Source of the DNA: Akkermansia muciniphila
Lineage (GTDB): Bacteria; Verrucomicrobiota; Verrucomicrobiia; Verrucomicrobiales; DEV007
DNA length: 64,000 bases
Direction: 5' to 3'
Assembly: GCA_945883495.1 (NCBI GenBank)
Contig: CAMCXS010000023.1
Coordinates: forward strand, 1 to 64,000
Shown here: piece after piece, positions 44,518 to 51,603 of the stretch
Position numbering within the stretch: the first letter of the stretch is position 1
Layout: every line of letters starts with the position of its first letter
Notes under the pieces: generated by a model
Seen by the model: the letters and a program-made list of their open reading frames with translations, nothing else
Told to the model about the DNA's origin: nothing
Databases searched by the model: none
Made by a program: the position numbers and the translations under genes

Positions 44518-46503
44518 TCAGCCCGCGAATCCGGGTGCAGGAGGAGGCGGAGTTTCTGGTGACCCGGGCTCGACTGGTCCGACTGGTCCGACTGGTCCGA
44601 CTGGTCCGACTGGTCCGACTGGTCCGACTGGTCCGACTGGTCCGACTGGTCCGACTGGTCCGACTGGTCCGACTGGTCCGACGGGTCCGACGGGTCCGAC
44701 GGGTCCGACTGACGTCACTTCCACCTCAGAGGTGCTCTCAACCACCGCAGAGGTGCTCTCAACCGCCTCAGAGGTGCTCACAACCGGGTCGGGCGTAGCC
44801 GCCACGGGCTCACTCAGCGGCTCAGGCACCGCCACTACCGGCTCAGCTTCAGGCTCAGGCGCGGACACCACGGACTCGGGCTTCGGCTCCGGCACCTCTA
44901 CTACCGGCTCAGGTTCAGGCTCGGGCGCGGACACCACGGACTCGGGCTTCGGCTCCGGCTCCGCCACTACCGGCTCAGGTTCAGGCTCGGGCGCGGACAC
45001 CACGGACTCGGGCTTCGGCTCCGGCACCTCTACTACCGGCTCAGCTTCAGGCTCGGGCGTGGACACCACGGACTCGGGCTTCGGCTCCGGCACCGCCACT
45101 ACCGGCTCAGCTTCAGGCTCCGGCGTGGACACCACGGACTCGGGCTTCGGCTCCTCAGTGGCAGGCGTTTCCACCAGCGGGAGTTCCGGTGCGGCCCAAG
45201 CGGGATCCGCCACCGGGATCATGGAGTTCAGGTTCTGCAACCGGTTGCGGACAATGCTGCCATCCCCAGCGATCGCGTTCTTGTATCCAGCTTCCTTCAG
45301 TTCCTCCAAAATGGGTTGCACGTCCCGGTAAGCCTGCGCTGCCTTGGCCGCGATGCTTCCGAAGTCCGGCGTGATCCGGTACAGCTTCGGAATAAACCAA
45401 CCATGCACCACTGCCGCTAGCAAATGCATCTGGGCACGCTCATCCCCTGCCGTGGACGGATGCCGGAACAGATCCGCATAAAACTCGCCCCAGGCGAACG
45501 GCCGTCCCACCGGCTTGTTCTTGATCCCGGATAGATAGAGGAGGAACTCCGAGACGTTCTGCTCCGGGCTCAACCGGGAATGATCCAAGGGCGCATCATC
45601 GCCGTTCCAATAGGCCAGATTTGCGGGAAGTGGGAGCAGCCCAATCTCTTTCTCACTATGCACGTGCTTCGGATCCACATGGGCGCCTTTCAGCCCCATC
45701 TCCGCATTCATAATGCAGAACGCATCCACCAAGCTCAGCGGCACAAAGAACTCACCGTGCGCGCGCTCCTCCTGCACTTTATTGACGTTCTCCACCGCCA
45801 TCGCCAGCAAGGCATGATTGCGCGAGAAAAACTCTTCCTTGGTCAGATCCTTGGTATCCAGCTTCAAGGTGCCAAAAACATTCCGCGGATTGACCGCCGT
45901 GGAGCCCGGGGAAAGTTCTTTGTCGATCCCCGCATACGCCATCAGTCCTTCGAGATACATCTTGGCGAACCCGGTGATCCCCACCCGCTGCGCCGCGACC
46001 AGATCGACCGAGTTCGAGCAGAAGAACGGCTCCACCAACACGGCAGTGGCCCGAGCCGAGTGCAAACTCCGGCCCCCGCGGTCATCGGGTCCCAACACCT
46101 TGAGCCCACGGTCTGGCCGCCCCAGCGCCTTGACCATTGCCTTTTGCAGGTGCCCGGCCAGGGCCAGCGACTTCGCGGAACCGCTCGACAACGTTTCAGT
46201 CCCGGTGGCGCTGGGCGAAGCCGCGTTGAAGTGCAGCTCGATGCTGGCATCCGCGCCCTTCGCATCAACTTGGTCGTAGGCGGCATCGATCTCCGCACTG
46301 TAGCTGGAATGGAAGGTGCGGTTGACTTTGAACAGCTCCAGCTTCTGCCCGCCCCGGAGCAGATTGAACAAGTTGTCCGTGGACAGCCGCAGCATCTCGT
46401 CGGCGATCAGGTTATTGAAATCAAATTCCGACATGCCAATCGGGGTCGGCGCATAAGCCCCCGGAGCCTTGGCGTTGTGTCCGACAACGATTGCGATTTT
46501 CAT
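44518..46503 (-). CDS. N-acetylmuramoyl-L-alanine amidase-like protein with 22-residue repeats and collagen-like tail
   Basis: ATG 46503 starts the domain directly ([16 protein letters not shown]). Residues about 1-190 match Amidase_3, which cleaves the amide between MurNAc and the peptide stem: a zinc-ligand-like [13 protein letters not shown] (His-x-Asn), and [11 protein letters not shown] with the likely catalytic Glu. Residues 190-455 form a helical domain of unknown role. Five 22-residue Pro/Glu/Val repeats follow ([18 protein letters not shown] type), and then about 15 GPV triplets. There is no signal peptide, which is odd for an amidase. The last part may be a stalk or entropic spacer. 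Confidence 0.75.
44572..44706. repeat. 9-bp tandem repeat encoding GPV triplets
   Basis: Fifteen units of GACTGGTCC (the last three GACGGGTCC) run without interruption. In the minus-strand amidase frame each unit is Gly-Pro-Val. The near-perfect identity suggests recent slippage expansion, so copy number may vary between strains. Confidence 0.95.
44822..45151. repeat. Five 66-bp tandem repeats encoding Pro/Glu/Val-rich units
   Basis: The minus-strand amidase frame carries five consecutive 22-residue units of the KPESVVS-PEPE-EPVV kind, differing at a few positions (Thr/Ala, Ala/Pro, Ala/Glu). The edges are approximate. These units lie between the helical domain and the GPV tract. Confidence 0.9.
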
Positions 46504-46666
46504 GGAGCCATCGGTAAATGCGAATTGGTAGACTGGCAACAGAGTCGCGCCCAGATGCACGCAATTGTCACAGACCGCCGCCAGTCCCGTAAGCGATCGT
46601 TGCGCCGCTGGCAGTTGCGTCTAACAGTCTTCAGGATTATCGAAACCACATCCATCCTACGCACTC

Positions 46667-47254
46667 ATGAAAGCTTCTCCCCGTTTCCGAGCGATGCCCC
46701 TAAACCTCGCCCTGGCCGCGATTTGGATTGCCGGATCGTTTGGCTTGGCGTCCTTGGCCAAGGCGGACCTCGACGCCGCCACGCCCAACGCCATCGTCAG
46801 GTTGATCGCCAAGCACGGCGCCAACTTCACTGAGACTTTGGAGAGCGTTCCAGAGCTGCAATCCTATTTGGCCAAGTCCCCCTCCCCGGAAAAAGCGCTC
46901 AACCAATTCCTCGCGAAGGAATCCGCCGCGGAACAAGCCAAGTGGATCACCCGCTTTTCCGACACGCTCGATATCCGGACCATGCTGGGACGCGAATCCG
47001 CCAAGGTGCCGAATGGCCTCTATGAAGTGGCATCGCTCATCCCCCCCCTGGACAAGACCGCCATCGCCGCCCTGCGGGAAGCCGGGATGCCGATGAACTC
47101 CAAAGACGCCGCCGAAGTGGCCTCCAACATGAGTTCCGCCCAAGCCTCCCACCTCCAAAGCAAGCTCGCCCTGAAAATCGCTGAATTGAGCCCGTCAGAG
47201 AAACAGCGGCTCATCGCCAAGTTCAAAGAAACCGCCAAGGCCCGCCGCCGCTAG
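46667..47254 (+). CDS. Hypothetical exported protein
   Basis: The 195-residue protein begins with a probable signal peptide (LNLALAAIWIAGSFGLASLAKA, about residues 12-33, cut after AKA). The mature part is mainly helical and hydrophilic, rich in Ala, Lys and Ser, and ends in a basic KAKARRR-like tail. No known domain is visible. The TAG stop is at the same time the first three bases of a 59-bp REP-like unit. Confidence 0.6.
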   Translation: MKASPRFRAMPLNLALAAIWIAGSFGLASLAKADLDAATPNAIVRLIAKHGANFTETLESVPELQSYLAKSPSPEKALNQFLAKESAAEQAKWITRFSDTLDIRTMLGRESAKVPNGLYEVASLIPPLDKTAIAALREAGMPMNSKDAAEVASNMSSAQASHLQSKLALKIAELSPSEKQRLIAKFKETAKARRR

Positions 47255-47541
47255 CCCGGACTTTAGTCCGGGAATGGCGGACTCAAGTCCGCACCACAGA
47301 TCAGGTAACGTAGCCCGGACTTTAGTCCGGGATTGGCGGACTCAAGTCCGCACCACATATCAAATAACGTAGCCCGGACTTTAGTCCGGGAATGGCGGAC
47401 TGAAGTCCGCACCACAGATCAGGTAACGTAGCCCGGGCTTTAGTCCGGGATTGGCGGACTCAAGTCGGCACCACAGATCAGGTAACGTAGCCCGGACTTT
47501 AGTCCGGGATTGGCGGACTGAAGTCTGGGCTACCTTGGCAC
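47252..47541. repeat. REP-like array, four full 59-bp units plus a partial fifth
   Basis: Units begin at 47252, 47311, 47370, 47429 and 47488, exactly 59 bp apart. Each has two hairpins, CCCGGACTTTAGTCCGGG and GCGGACT-CAA-AGTCCGC-like, followed by an ACCACAGATCAGGTAACG linker. The fifth unit is truncated and closes with GTCTGGGCTACC, which pairs with the opening GTAGCCCGGAC. The array lies between convergent genes and supplies the stop codons of both. Hairpins of this kind could terminate transcription from both sides and are targets of the adjacent RAYT enzyme. Confidence 0.92.
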
Positions 47542-48164
47542 AAATACTCCCAGGGCCGCAGCCGACCTTTCACCGGATTGTCCACGATATATCGCCGGAA
47601 ATGGTCGAGCTGTTCCGCGCTCCGGACGATGTGATCAAACGACTCCTCCTGCCACAGCGTCCCGCTCCGCCCAAGCCGCCGGTTGATGAACCGGGAGGAA
47701 GCCCCTTTCCAGCGTTGCACGATCCGGCTCAGGTCCTGATTCACCGGGGTGACCAAGGCATGCAGATGATTCGGCATCACCACCCAGGCATCGAGCCAGT
47801 ACTCGTCCGGATGCCCTTTGACGAGCTGATCTTTCACCAGTTGGGCGATGCCCAGTTGGCGCAGGACACACTCTCCCTCTCCGGCGTCCAGCCAGTCGTG
47901 CCATTTCTTGGTGAAGGTCCGTTGAAACTCGCGTTGCAACGGTTCCGGCAAGGTCGGGAGATCCCTGGCATCCTTCAACCCGTGGGCGCCGAGCCAGGCG
48001 TCGCGTTCTTCCTTCCACTGCTCAATCCGGCTCCGGGGCATCGAATCCTCCAATCTTGCGGTGACGAAATAGGTGACGCCTTCTTGACGCCAATGGGGAA
48101 GCTTCTTCCGGTATTTGACAACTTCACCCTCGGGGTCGAATGGCTGGAATTCCATGCTGTTCAA
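47499..48164 (-). CDS. REP-associated tyrosine transposase (RAYT, Y1/IS200-like)
   Basis: RAYTs are single-strand HUH nucleases related to IS200/IS605 TnpA that cut REP hairpins. The 221-residue protein contains GVTYFVTARLEDSMPRS (first strand), the HUH-type WVVMPNHLHALVTP, and the catalytic tyrosine helix in DHFRRYIVDNPVKGRL, preceded by SFDHIVRSAEQ. REP-like repeats flank it: the array at its 3' end and a single copy 39 bases upstream. Its last dozen codons and its TAA stop lie inside the fifth repeat unit. The start may be TTG 48164 or ATG 48155. Confidence 0.9.
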   Translation of the reverse strand: MNSMEFQPFDPEGEVVKYRKKLPHWRQEGVTYFVTARLEDSMPRSRIEQWKEERDAWLGAHGLKDARDLPTLPEPLQREFQRTFTKKWHDWLDAGEGECVLRQLGIAQLVKDQLVKGHPDEYWLDAWVVMPNHLHALVTPVNQDLSRIVQRWKGASSRFINRRLGRSGTLWQEESFDHIVRSAEQLDHFRRYIVDNPVKGRLRPWEYLCQGSPDFSPPIPD

Positions 48165-48273: not shown

Positions 48274-48981
48274 TTATTGGCTCGGTTGCCCAGCCCCCGC
48301 CGACTTCTTAGTCCGCCGCCGTCCCGCATCGACGACACTCCGCGCGGCAAAGTAGCCGTCGATGAACACATCGTCCCGGAACTGCCCCACCAGGCCGTCC
48401 ATTTTGCGGAAGATGGCTTCCACCGCGTTGAACCGGTCCCGCAAAGCCGCCGTCAAGGCCCGGCGTTCTCCGATCGCCACCCGCGGCGCGCCCAAGGCGC
48501 CCTCGAACTCGTTCGCCTCCCGCTCCGTTTCGTTGACCGTCTCCGCCGAGATCCCACAGTCCTCCGCGTCTTCCCCATGATCCGCCAAGAGCTTACGGGC
48601 GATTCCGATCGTCTCCCGCGCGGTGCTCAAGAGGATGGCATCCCGCATCCGGCGCCAATCCGTTTGGCTGAAGTCCACCTTGGCAGCGTCCGTCTCATTC
48701 CCCAACTCCCGGCAGCACACCGCCACGGCTTGGCCGAGCAGATACGCCGCATCTTCGAGCTCCTCTTCCTCACGGGCTTTATCGGCCGCCACCCCGCTGA
48801 TCTGCGACGCCTGTGCCTTACAAAAATCCGCCAGGACGGCCACTGAGTTCTTGGCCTCCAACACTCGTTTGCCGAAGCGCAACGGAGTTTTGTCCTTCCA
48901 GATCCTCTCGGATTCCGGTTCGTGAAGAAACGTGAGCGTCGCGCGGAAGGCGTCGAGCCGGTTGGTGTAAGCGTCTTTCAT
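48274..48981 (-). CDS. Helical hypothetical protein downstream of a 21-bp repeat array
   Basis: The 235-residue protein (ATG 48981) is soluble, acidic and predicted nearly all-helical, in the manner of a four- or five-helix bundle. Segments include LDAFRATLTFLHEPESERIW, AVLADFCKAQASQISGVAAD, a C-terminal RFNAVEAIFRKMDGLVGQF, and a final DGYFAARSVVDAGRRR. From memory, similar helical proteins with an internal duplication occur in Bacteroidota and Verrucomicrobiota and have no assigned function. Its start codon lies 10 bases from an array of 21-bp repeats that, in transcript order, would form its leader. No Shine-Dalgarno sequence is seen. Confidence 0.7.
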   Translation of the reverse strand: MKDAYTNRLDAFRATLTFLHEPESERIWKDKTPLRFGKRVLEAKNSVAVLADFCKAQASQISGVAADKAREEEELEDAAYLLGQAVAVCCRELGNETDAAKVDFSQTDWRRMRDAILLSTARETIGIARKLLADHGEDAEDCGISAETVNETEREANEFEGALGAPRVAIGERRALTAALRDRFNAVEAIFRKMDGLVGQFRDDVFIDGYFAARSVVDAGRRRTKKSAGAGQPSQ

Positions 48982-48991
48982 GTGAGGGTGG

Positions 48992-49264
48992 TTGTTCTTG
49001 GAAAAAGGCCGATTTCCCGCACCGCTCGCCCGGCTGCGAAGACTTTCCGGGCGATTGCTGGCACGTCCCGGTGGATTGCGGAGACCTCCCGGCCAATTGC
49101 GGAAGCACCCCGGCCGATGGTGGCAACGTCCCCGCCGGTTGTTGGCACGTCCCACGCCATTGCGGAAACGTCCCAGCCAATTGCGAACCGCGCCCGGTCA
49201 CCAACGCGAACGGACCGGCCGATTGTTTGCGTCGACCGGCCGATTGCGAAATCGGAGTGAGGAA
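48992..49264. repeat. Array of degenerate 21-bp tandem repeats upstream of the helical protein gene
   Basis: About 12 consecutive units, each exactly 21 bp, start at 48992 and repeat every 21 bases to 49243. A thirteenth degenerate unit ends at 49264. Units typically begin TTGCGGA, vary in the middle, and end in CCCGGCCGA or CCCAGCCAA. There are no unique spacers between them, so this is not CRISPR. Because 21 is a multiple of three, several frames on both strands remain open and show 7-residue periodicity. The same repeat type occurs at 19556-19702. Confidence 0.88.
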
Positions 49265-49538: not shown

Positions 49539-50021
49539 TCACTCTTCCAAGGTCCAGCCCTGCATGACCGCAACCTCGCGAACGAATGTCTCGCAAACCG
49601 CCCCCAGGTTTGACGCCACCTTGCCAACGATCGTGGCCAGTTCACTCATCCGGTCCTCCCGGAGCTTCACATCGTAAGCATGGTGGACGAGATGGCGAAA
49701 GCGGCGCAACTCATCCAATTCACTTCTCAGGTCCGCTCCAAACAGAGCCGGGCGCACCCCTGGAACGTGGAGAGTCATGCGCCGGAGGAGAGCTTCGTGC
49801 CAGCCGCCGTCCTTCGGCAAATTGTTCTCGAAACTTCGAGCCACTCTCAACCCCATCTGCTCGATGATGTTGTAGGCACGGGCCAACTCGAATGCTGTCG
49901 CTTGCAGCTTGCCGTGGGTGCCTTGCTCCAGGTGCGCGGCCGCCTCCGAGGCCGTTTCTCCGAAAATGCGGCAGTCCTCGCGCATTTCTTCACGGAGGGC
50001 GATCAATCCTAAACGGTCCAC
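49539..50021 (-). CDS. HepT-like HEPN toxin
   Basis: HEPN-domain HepT toxins are RNases held in check by MntA nucleotidyltransferases that AMPylate a tyrosine. The GTG start at 50021 is preceded by a strong AAGGAG at the right distance and gives 160 residues. The frame upstream to 50129 is rejected. The all-helical protein carries RHLVHHAY, an R-x4-H-x-Y motif: Arg and His are the HEPN catalytic pair and the Tyr is the modification site. It overlaps the mntA-like gene by 13 bases, so the two are coupled. Confidence 0.85.
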   Translation of the reverse strand: MDRLGLIALREEMREDCRIFGETASEAAAHLEQGTHGKLQATAFELARAYNIIEQMGLRVARSFENNLPKDGGWHEALLRRMTLHVPGVRPALFGADLRSELDELRRFRHLVHHAYDVKLREDRMSELATIVGKVASNLGAVCETFVREVAVMQGWTLEE

Positions 50022-50362
50022 GGTGCTCCTTGGCGTCGGATCTTCTCTCTCAACAAAGGCCGGACGCTGGCCAGATTCAGCAGGTCCACCGGCCGGCCGA
50101 GCGCTTCTTCCAGGGCGACGGCCAGACACGTCAACTCGCGCTCCTCAAGGACCTGATCCGGGTTCGACTCCCAATCCAAAGCCAAATCGACATCGGAATG
50201 CTCGTCAAACTGGCCAGGGACCAGGACCGACCCAAACACGATGACTCGGTATCCTTTGGGGAGAATCTTCTTCAGGGTTTCTTCCAGAACGTGGAGCGCG
50301 AGCAGGCGTTGCGACTCCCGAAGCCGGAGCCGTTCTTCATGGGTCTCTTGAAGGGCCGTCAT
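50009..50362 (-). CDS. MntA-like nucleotidyltransferase antitoxin
   Basis: The minimal nucleotidyltransferase has the signature GSVLVPGQFDEHSDVDLALD (G-S-x(n)-D-x-D), with the two aspartates that bind metal. It is expected to add AMP to the tyrosine of HepT. ATG 50362 follows GGGAGG and gives 117 residues. A start at 50404 is open but has no ribosome-binding site. It precedes the HepT gene, as is common for the type VII MntA/HepT system. Confidence 0.86.
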   Translation of the reverse strand: MTALQETHEERLRLRESQRLLALHVLEETLKKILPKGYRVIVFGSVLVPGQFDEHSDVDLALDWESNPDQVLEERELTCLAVALEEALGRPVDLLNLASVRPLLREKIRRQGAPWTV

Positions 50363-50445
50363 GCCTCCCGTCAGCGTAACCGCCGTCCGGCTCAGGACAA
50401 GCACAATTCAAGTCGACGCCCCGCGCGCGCCCCGCCCGTCGAGGT

Positions 50446-51112: not shown

Positions 51113-51352
51113 ATGACCTGGAAACTTGCCGACGCAAAGAACCGGTTGAGCGAGCTCGTGGACCTAGCCCTCGCTGAAGGTCCGCAGACGATCACCCGGC
51201 GGGGTGACGAACTCATTTTGATTTCCAAGGAGGATTACCTGCGCCGCGTTGGCGAACGGGAGTCCTTCACCGAATTTTTGATGGGCCAACCGTCGCTGGA
51301 AGGAGTCGATCTCGGAAGGGCTCCGGATGAGATGCGGACCGTCTCGACATGA
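51113..51352 (+). CDS. Phd/YefM family antitoxin
   Basis: The 79-residue protein begins TWKLADAKNRLSELVDLALA and has TITRRGDELILISKEDYLR, the standard Phd/YefM dimerisation and DNA-binding domain, and a C-terminal tail (SFTEFLMGQPSLEGVDLGR) that would neutralise the toxin. It overlaps the PIN gene by ATGA. Confidence 0.9.
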   Translation: MTWKLADAKNRLSELVDLALAEGPQTITRRGDELILISKEDYLRRVGERESFTEFLMGQPSLEGVDLGRAPDEMRTVST

Positions 51353-51603
51353 GGGTGCTGCTCGACACCAATGTCATCTCCGAAATCCGCCATCCGAATG
51401 GGAACGAGTTCGTCAAGCATCGCATCGCGGCGGTCCATGCGGATGTCCTTTTTGTCAGCGCAGTTGTCTTCGCCGAATTGACCAAGGGCGTGCTGCGGTT
51501 GCCCAAAGGACGCAAACGAAAGGAATTGCTCCTCTGGCTAAAGCGGTTCGAATCGGATTTCGGAGATGATCGCACAGTCAACCTGCCTGACTGTCGTTTG
51601 TGA
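51349..51603 (+). pseudogene. PIN domain toxin (VapC/FitB-like), truncated
   Basis: The first 75 residues are a normal PIN N-terminus: RVLLDTNVISEIRHP with the first catalytic Asp, and VSAVVFAELTKGVLRLPKG with the catalytic Glu. Full-length relatives have about 135-140 residues and two more acidic residues in the second half. Here a stop follows at codon 85 after an unrelated NLPDCRL ending, and no continuation is visible in any frame downstream. The gene appears broken by a deletion or rearrangement, so the toxin is probably inactive. Confidence 0.75.

Follow-up and report, generated by a model that had tools for sequence, protein, structure and literature searches.

Iterons are tandem direct repeats of approximately two helical turns that lie beside the gene of their cognate binder. 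In the case of TRAP, about 11 evenly spaced NAG repeats are found upstream of the regulated gene. TRAP is an 11-mer beta-ring that reads RNA triplets, whereas the locus described here has an all-alpha protein and a 21-bp period, which is that of DNA pitch. Type II plasmid partition systems consist of parC, a direct-repeat centromere, and its binding protein ParR, and are represented by R1, pSK41, and the ParMRC families of C. perfringens (PMC9426499, PMC5016525). The parC repeats of pSK41 are 20 bp (PMC9426499, PMC5016525). There are about ten coexisting ParMRC families, each with its own type of array, and a given ParR binds the parC of its own family alone (PMC9426499).

The family described here resembles parC/ParR in having an upstream direct-repeat array with paralogue-specific motifs, and in our sequences the motif follows the protein. 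Its likeness to iteron/Rep systems lies in tandem repeats of approximately two turns that adjoin the gene, with the role of binder being a predicted one. However, ParR is a small ribbon-helix-helix protein, whereas the protein here has approximately 220 amino acids, matches no ribbon-helix-helix family, and is predicted to be all-alpha without a beta strand. ParR is encoded together with the actin-like ParM on plasmids, whereas the module here is chromosomal and dispersed, with no recurring ParM-like neighbor in about 90 loci and no plasmid match. Similarly, Rep is a winged-helix initiator located beside an AT-rich origin, whereas the helical module has no replicon, reaches up to approximately 20 copies per chromosome, and encodes a protein that matches no Rep family in Pfam or NCBIfam. 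The copies are dispersed over many chromosomal contigs of one genome. The family is thus a member of neither the parC/ParR nor the iteron/Rep systems, and we regard parC/ParR centromeres and iterons as what may be its closest working analogues.

The array and its gene in the window

The window, i.e., the whole stretch of 64,000 nucleotides analyzed here, carries a gene for a helical protein with an array of 21-bp units on its 5' side (Table 1). The open reading frame and the start of this gene are conserved among its homologues. The array had been noticed from the sequence alone in the original prediction, and it proved to be real: the lag-21 identity for positions 49010-49259 was 0.557, compared with 0.273 ± 0.029 (maximum 0.387) in 2,000 dinucleotide shuffles, the units could be aligned in rows, and Tandem Repeats Finder also called a period of 21 (49047-49184). 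The units have constant ends and a variable middle, as had been described, and the consensus of the core in gene orientation is.tccgCAATcGgCcGGga.GT. The original prediction counted 12-13 units; the 21-bp periodicity held, but the count was slightly generous (about 11-12). One degenerate unit within the core was skipped by the unit finder, which accepted 10 units in 11 periods. A gap of only 10 bases to the start codon had also been stated; the degeneracy of the last units brings the actual gap to about 20-40 bp. No sigma-70 consensus was found in the short spacer before the start codon.

Several other features surround this pair. Directly 3' of the helical gene lies an IS200-like Y1 transposase (RAYT-like, 47499-48164), flanked by REP-like 59-bp palindromic repeats, of which 4.6 tandem copies occupy 47252-47525 and one more is found at about 48204. 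Just upstream of the array, 49539-50404 encodes a HepT-like protein and a nucleotidyltransferase (PF20797, PF18765), probably a HepT/MNT toxin-antitoxin pair. Two small open reading frames at 51113-51603 resemble, by eye only, an antitoxin and a PIN-domain toxin (VapBC-like). Finally, a 680-aa open reading frame at 44518-46560 contains a (PVG)n stretch from 9-bp repeats and PEPEPVV-type units from 66-bp repeats.

Table 1. Positions of the array, its gene, and related features in the window and at other loci
Feature	Position	Strand	Remarks
Gene of the 235-aa all-helical protein	48277..48981	minus	ATG 48981-48979; stop just below 48277
Short spacer, last degenerate unit to start codon	48982..48999	minus	
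Degenerate gene-proximal unit	49000..49020	minus	holds GAAATCGGCC; row alignment only
Array core	49021..49251	minus	11 periods of 21 bp; 10 units pass the weight-matrix test
Whole array, including degenerate units	~49000-49254	minus	about 11-12 degenerate 21-bp units
G030 copies with integrases	L080:759-2006; L081:2711-4033; L083:1994-3307		
Orphan array	L231:1514-1765		12 units of 21 bp, CAAAY/CGGTCG type; no family gene beside it

The helical protein and the arrays of its family

The protein of 235 residues is predicted to be all-helical, as the original prediction had it (AlphaFold, pLDDT 91). Both AlphaFold models of family proteins consist of long helices (pLDDT 91 and 95; pTM 0.63 and 0.70). 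Searches of Pfam, NCBIfam, PHROGs, and PADLOC with 26 members gave no family match beyond single chance hits, a PDB sequence search gave no significant relative, and Foldseek gave no match with E < 1e-3 in the PDB or among the viral models of BFVD. The structure-search results contained no recognized DNA-binding fold. VIA-align 2 returned generic helical bundles with Z up to 9.3, which is below the meaningful level for such folds. S23/intervening-sequence protein (IVP) and Avd-like bundles (PDB 2rld) have a similar four-helix arrangement over residues 63-165 (Z 9.3, against approximately 13 as the meaningful value for helical bundles; rmsd 3.2; 97/228 residues), and 2rld was not among the VIA matches listed for the first model. 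However, these bundles are half the size, with no sequence match and no known array. The core of the family protein is mildly acidic on average, and the strongly conserved positions are the basic K68, R113, R173, and R214, plus D195. The tails vary from member to member, frequently with a high content of Pro, Ser, or Ala. Among the G014 and G030 members, L077, L078, and L084 have long C-terminal tails of low complexity that are rich in serine and proline, and many G000 members end in L-x-[SAG] instead. A literature search found no paper on such arrays or on the family, which, having no match in the curated libraries searched either, is previously undescribed.

In the order to which the window belongs, the family was found in 39 of 387 genomes; it is also present in other orders of the class Verrucomicrobiae, and it was not found outside this class in 383-388 genomes of the phylum. 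The named relatives are metagenome-assembled genomes of Verrucomicrobiaceae and Akkermansiaceae. From other phyla came a single contig labelled Proteobacteria (L199; 32% identity), without an array, and the viral, phage, and plasmid collections yielded no relative. The distribution is patchy, with 1 to about 20 copies per genome (about 20 matches, fragments counted, in the genome of the window), and truncated or frameshifted copies are common; the family has high birth and death. Homologue pairs are under purifying selection (dN/dS 0.10-0.29). In the protein tree, the window copy clusters with genomes of another family (support 100/99), and this grouping points to horizontal transfer.

Arrays with a period of 21 bp were detected upstream of 52 of the 88 homologues, an array being defined as a 126-bp stretch with a lag-21 identity of at least 0.5 within 900 bp upstream. 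Only 21 bp stood out in the scan of periods 15-40, the others giving 0-2 of 88 at each. Control regions examined at period 21 were positive in 3 of 80 cases far upstream and in 8 of 90 cases downstream, and some of the latter are probably repetitive coding tails. In a second set of 16 homologues from other orders, gathered once this definition was fixed, 12 had an array; the homologues are therefore not mostly devoid of arrays. The median number of units was 12 (range 6-19; 54 arrays). Among 581 steps between units, 553 were exact multiples of 21, 27 were off by 1 bp, and one was off by 2 bp; the unit finder tolerates a shift of at most 2 bp per step, so larger departures would terminate an array. 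The remaining 36 of the 88 homologues, whole clades among them, had no detectable array. Arrays occur in all deep clades of the protein tree and appear to have been lost repeatedly (15 changes). L067 has two upstream arrays: besides the proximal one, a stretch at -712 to -565 relative to the gene, some 230 bp farther upstream, consists of 21-bp units that are nearly identical to one another and carry another motif.

Motif divergence and copying of the array with its gene

A loose oriented motif is common to the arrays: approximately C-S-M-A-A-Y, followed after 4-5 free bases by another block, for example CGGTCG, CTTCG, or CTGAC. The alignment score of this common motif was 4.87, compared with 2.83 ± 0.06 in column-shuffled controls (related arrays included), and once close relatives had been removed, the motif was on the same strand in 28 of 35 arrays. 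Between sister arrays, the motif-block positions diverge by 20.7%, compared with 34.8% elsewhere (Fisher 1.5e-8), and the array length is constant. When L129 and L130 were compared unit by unit, CCAAA and GGTCGG were kept and the bases between them were altered. The variable positions of this pair differ at 29.7%, against 14.8% at silent sites (p = 0.002). General acceleration at variable positions was rejected: L129/L130 showed it, but L105/L137 and L061/L062 showed the reverse. The within-unit conservation of the first array set had a 10.5-bp component, which was not reproduced in the second set (13 arrays) and therefore counts as support and not as proof.

The motifs differ among the paralogues of one genome and are common to relatives in different species. 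Motif similarity correlated with protein identity over all pairs (Mantel r = 0.605; 0/2000 permutations) and over pairs less than 50% identical (r = 0.342; 0/2000 permutations). This correlation could come partly from linked inheritance, but where silent sites are saturated, such linkage by itself would not be expected to preserve motifs. Taken at the level of sequence, these comparisons suggest that the protein recognizes its own array. Two cases run against a strict coupling of motif and protein. First, at the orthologous loci L121 and L122, the flanks are kept and the proteins are similar, but the arrays are largely rewritten. Second, the genes of L066 and L067 are 95-96% identical, but the scored array units differ; the units scored for L067 are those of the distal second array, and its proximal array has CTAAGG..TGTGAC in common with L066. 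A search for specificity residues gave no more than five candidate columns, a number that does not suffice for a claim.

Three pairs within the same genome (L129/L130, L105/L137, and L061/L062) share a unit of approximately 1.3-1.5 kb in otherwise unrelated surroundings. The copied unit starts approximately 100-200 bp before the array and stops shortly after the gene. The idea that array and gene form a two-part element is thus well supported by their recurrence in homologues, by their being copied together, and by the motif following the protein. The element had further been called mobile; dispersed multi-copy duplication and horizontal transfer agree with this, but no transposase and no shared element ends were found with it. 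In the neighborhoods of about 90 loci, no transposase, terminal repeat, or conserved neighbor was found, and recent copies of G645, G564, G000, and G030 had no consistent shared termini or target duplications. An inverted repeat, AGGGTTNNGTCG, upstream of the G030 copies was considered as an element end and proved not to be general. Integron integrases are present in 12 of 19 carriers; as a general mover they were rejected, because an integrase adjoins the gene only in G030 (plus a fragment in G038 L089). In G030, three copies and their neighboring integron integrases (TIGR02249) are arranged tail to tail, and these integrases are mutually only 49-71% identical (Table 1). A role in defense islands was also rejected: HsdR, Dcm, and AriA-like neighbors occur, but equally many housekeeping genes do, and we claim no enrichment. 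PADLOC gave no meaningful match to a known anti-phage defense family among the 26 members.

A search of 387 genomes for two tandem units of the commonest motif was positive in 6, compared with none for the backward control pattern. Most of these matches adjoin a family gene; those that do not are a 12-unit array without a gene (Table 1), a small remnant, and an array located closely 5' of a transposase-like open reading frame.

Proposed binding and alternative explanations

The reading that we favor, with a probability of roughly one half, is that of a two-part chromosomal module, in which an oriented 21-bp array is joined to the gene of an all-alpha protein that would bind its own array cooperatively. 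We infer binding by the cognate protein, cooperativity, and autoregulation as follows. Approximately 12 oriented sites directly upstream of the gene are spaced at exactly 21 bp, i.e., two helical turns, and with this spacing all sites face one side of the DNA. The protein or its oligomer would bind with one protomer or dimer per site, the bound proteins would build a continuous nucleoprotein filament, and the filament beside the start codon would autoregulate the gene. The filament may also pair or position DNA, as iteron or centromere arrays do, and the different motifs in the paralogues of one genome would represent separate specificity groups. The adjacent gene is the best candidate for the binder because it is inherited with the array and matches its motif. 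A two-turn period kept despite sequence drift is what a one-sided binder requires. On the other side stand the acidic core, the lack of a known DNA-binding fold, the array-less homologues, the orphan arrays, the motifs of L121/L122 and L066/L067, and the 10.5-bp component that was not reproduced. As for the cellular purpose, a selfish dispersed module, DNA positioning, and plain regulation are the candidates. It is a tentative suggestion, with the odds somewhat against it, that these loci constitute a hitherto undescribed class of self-propagating DNA-protein modules on chromosomes, with one-faced filaments and orthogonal paralogue specificities, similar to centromeres or iterons but without a motor or replicon.

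A general host factor, such as a nucleoid protein or a regulator, or DNA shape itself might instead act at the array, with the neighboring protein being unrelated and merely regulated. The loose motif common to the arrays, the acidic core of the protein, and the array without a gene would all fit this explanation. However, the motifs of paralogues differ within a genome and follow the protein branch, which a single factor would not explain, and the commonest motif, where its units stand in tandem, is almost confined to the vicinity of a family gene. We consider a host factor unlikely. 

It is distinctly unlikely that the array is a transcribed, unstructured 5' leader whose repeated RNA is bound by the protein or another factor that controls translation or stability, somewhat as TRAP does through NAG repeats. 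In favor of such a leader, arrays tend to lie in one orientation with respect to the gene, and a few of them end 6-26 bp before the ATG, where they are probably in or beside the transcript, but a selected period of two helical turns lacks an obvious reason in single-stranded RNA. Moreover, the folding energy of 48 arrays was at the column-shuffled level (mean z -0.07), and Rfam returned only sub-threshold noise; a structured RNA leader or riboswitch is accordingly without support.

The array might also have no function, having arisen as a by-product of tandem duplication and slippage in an ancestor and having since been passed on with the gene. Nearly identical units in the arrays of L120, L131, and L133, which reflect recent expansion, and the loss of the array in many homologues are in line with this. 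It is nevertheless highly unlikely, because spacing and length are kept at a base divergence of up to about 45%, the motif positions are constrained, and the same period recurs across orders with unrelated motifs.

Lastly, the original prediction allowed for translation of the array into a heptad peptide, and such a peptide might stand by itself or be joined to the protein. The window array does have several open frames, one of them a heptad open reading frame that overlaps the gene by ATGA, and at L009/L079 of G030 the frame of the gene continues open across the array. Translation is scarcely credible now, however, because no phase relative to gene or motif is consistently open across arrays, the gene-phase frame is stop-free in only 16 of 53, the phases of the motif with respect to the ATG are distributed 18/14/11, stops occur in all six frames in some arrays (L062, L126), and the reading frame is shifted wherever a step measures 20 or 22 bp.

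Returning to the proposed cooperative binding of the array by its own protein, a new all-alpha protein is paired in most copies with an exactly helix-phased DNA array, and many diverged versions of this pair are present inside one cell. If the proteins do bind their arrays, the family would provide dozens of protein-DNA recognition pairs that are natural and mutually orthogonal, on a fold for which no DNA-binding relative is recognized. It could then be asked for what reason a chromosome carries as many as about 20 arrays resembling centromeres or iterons, and how the specificities of array and protein co-evolve.
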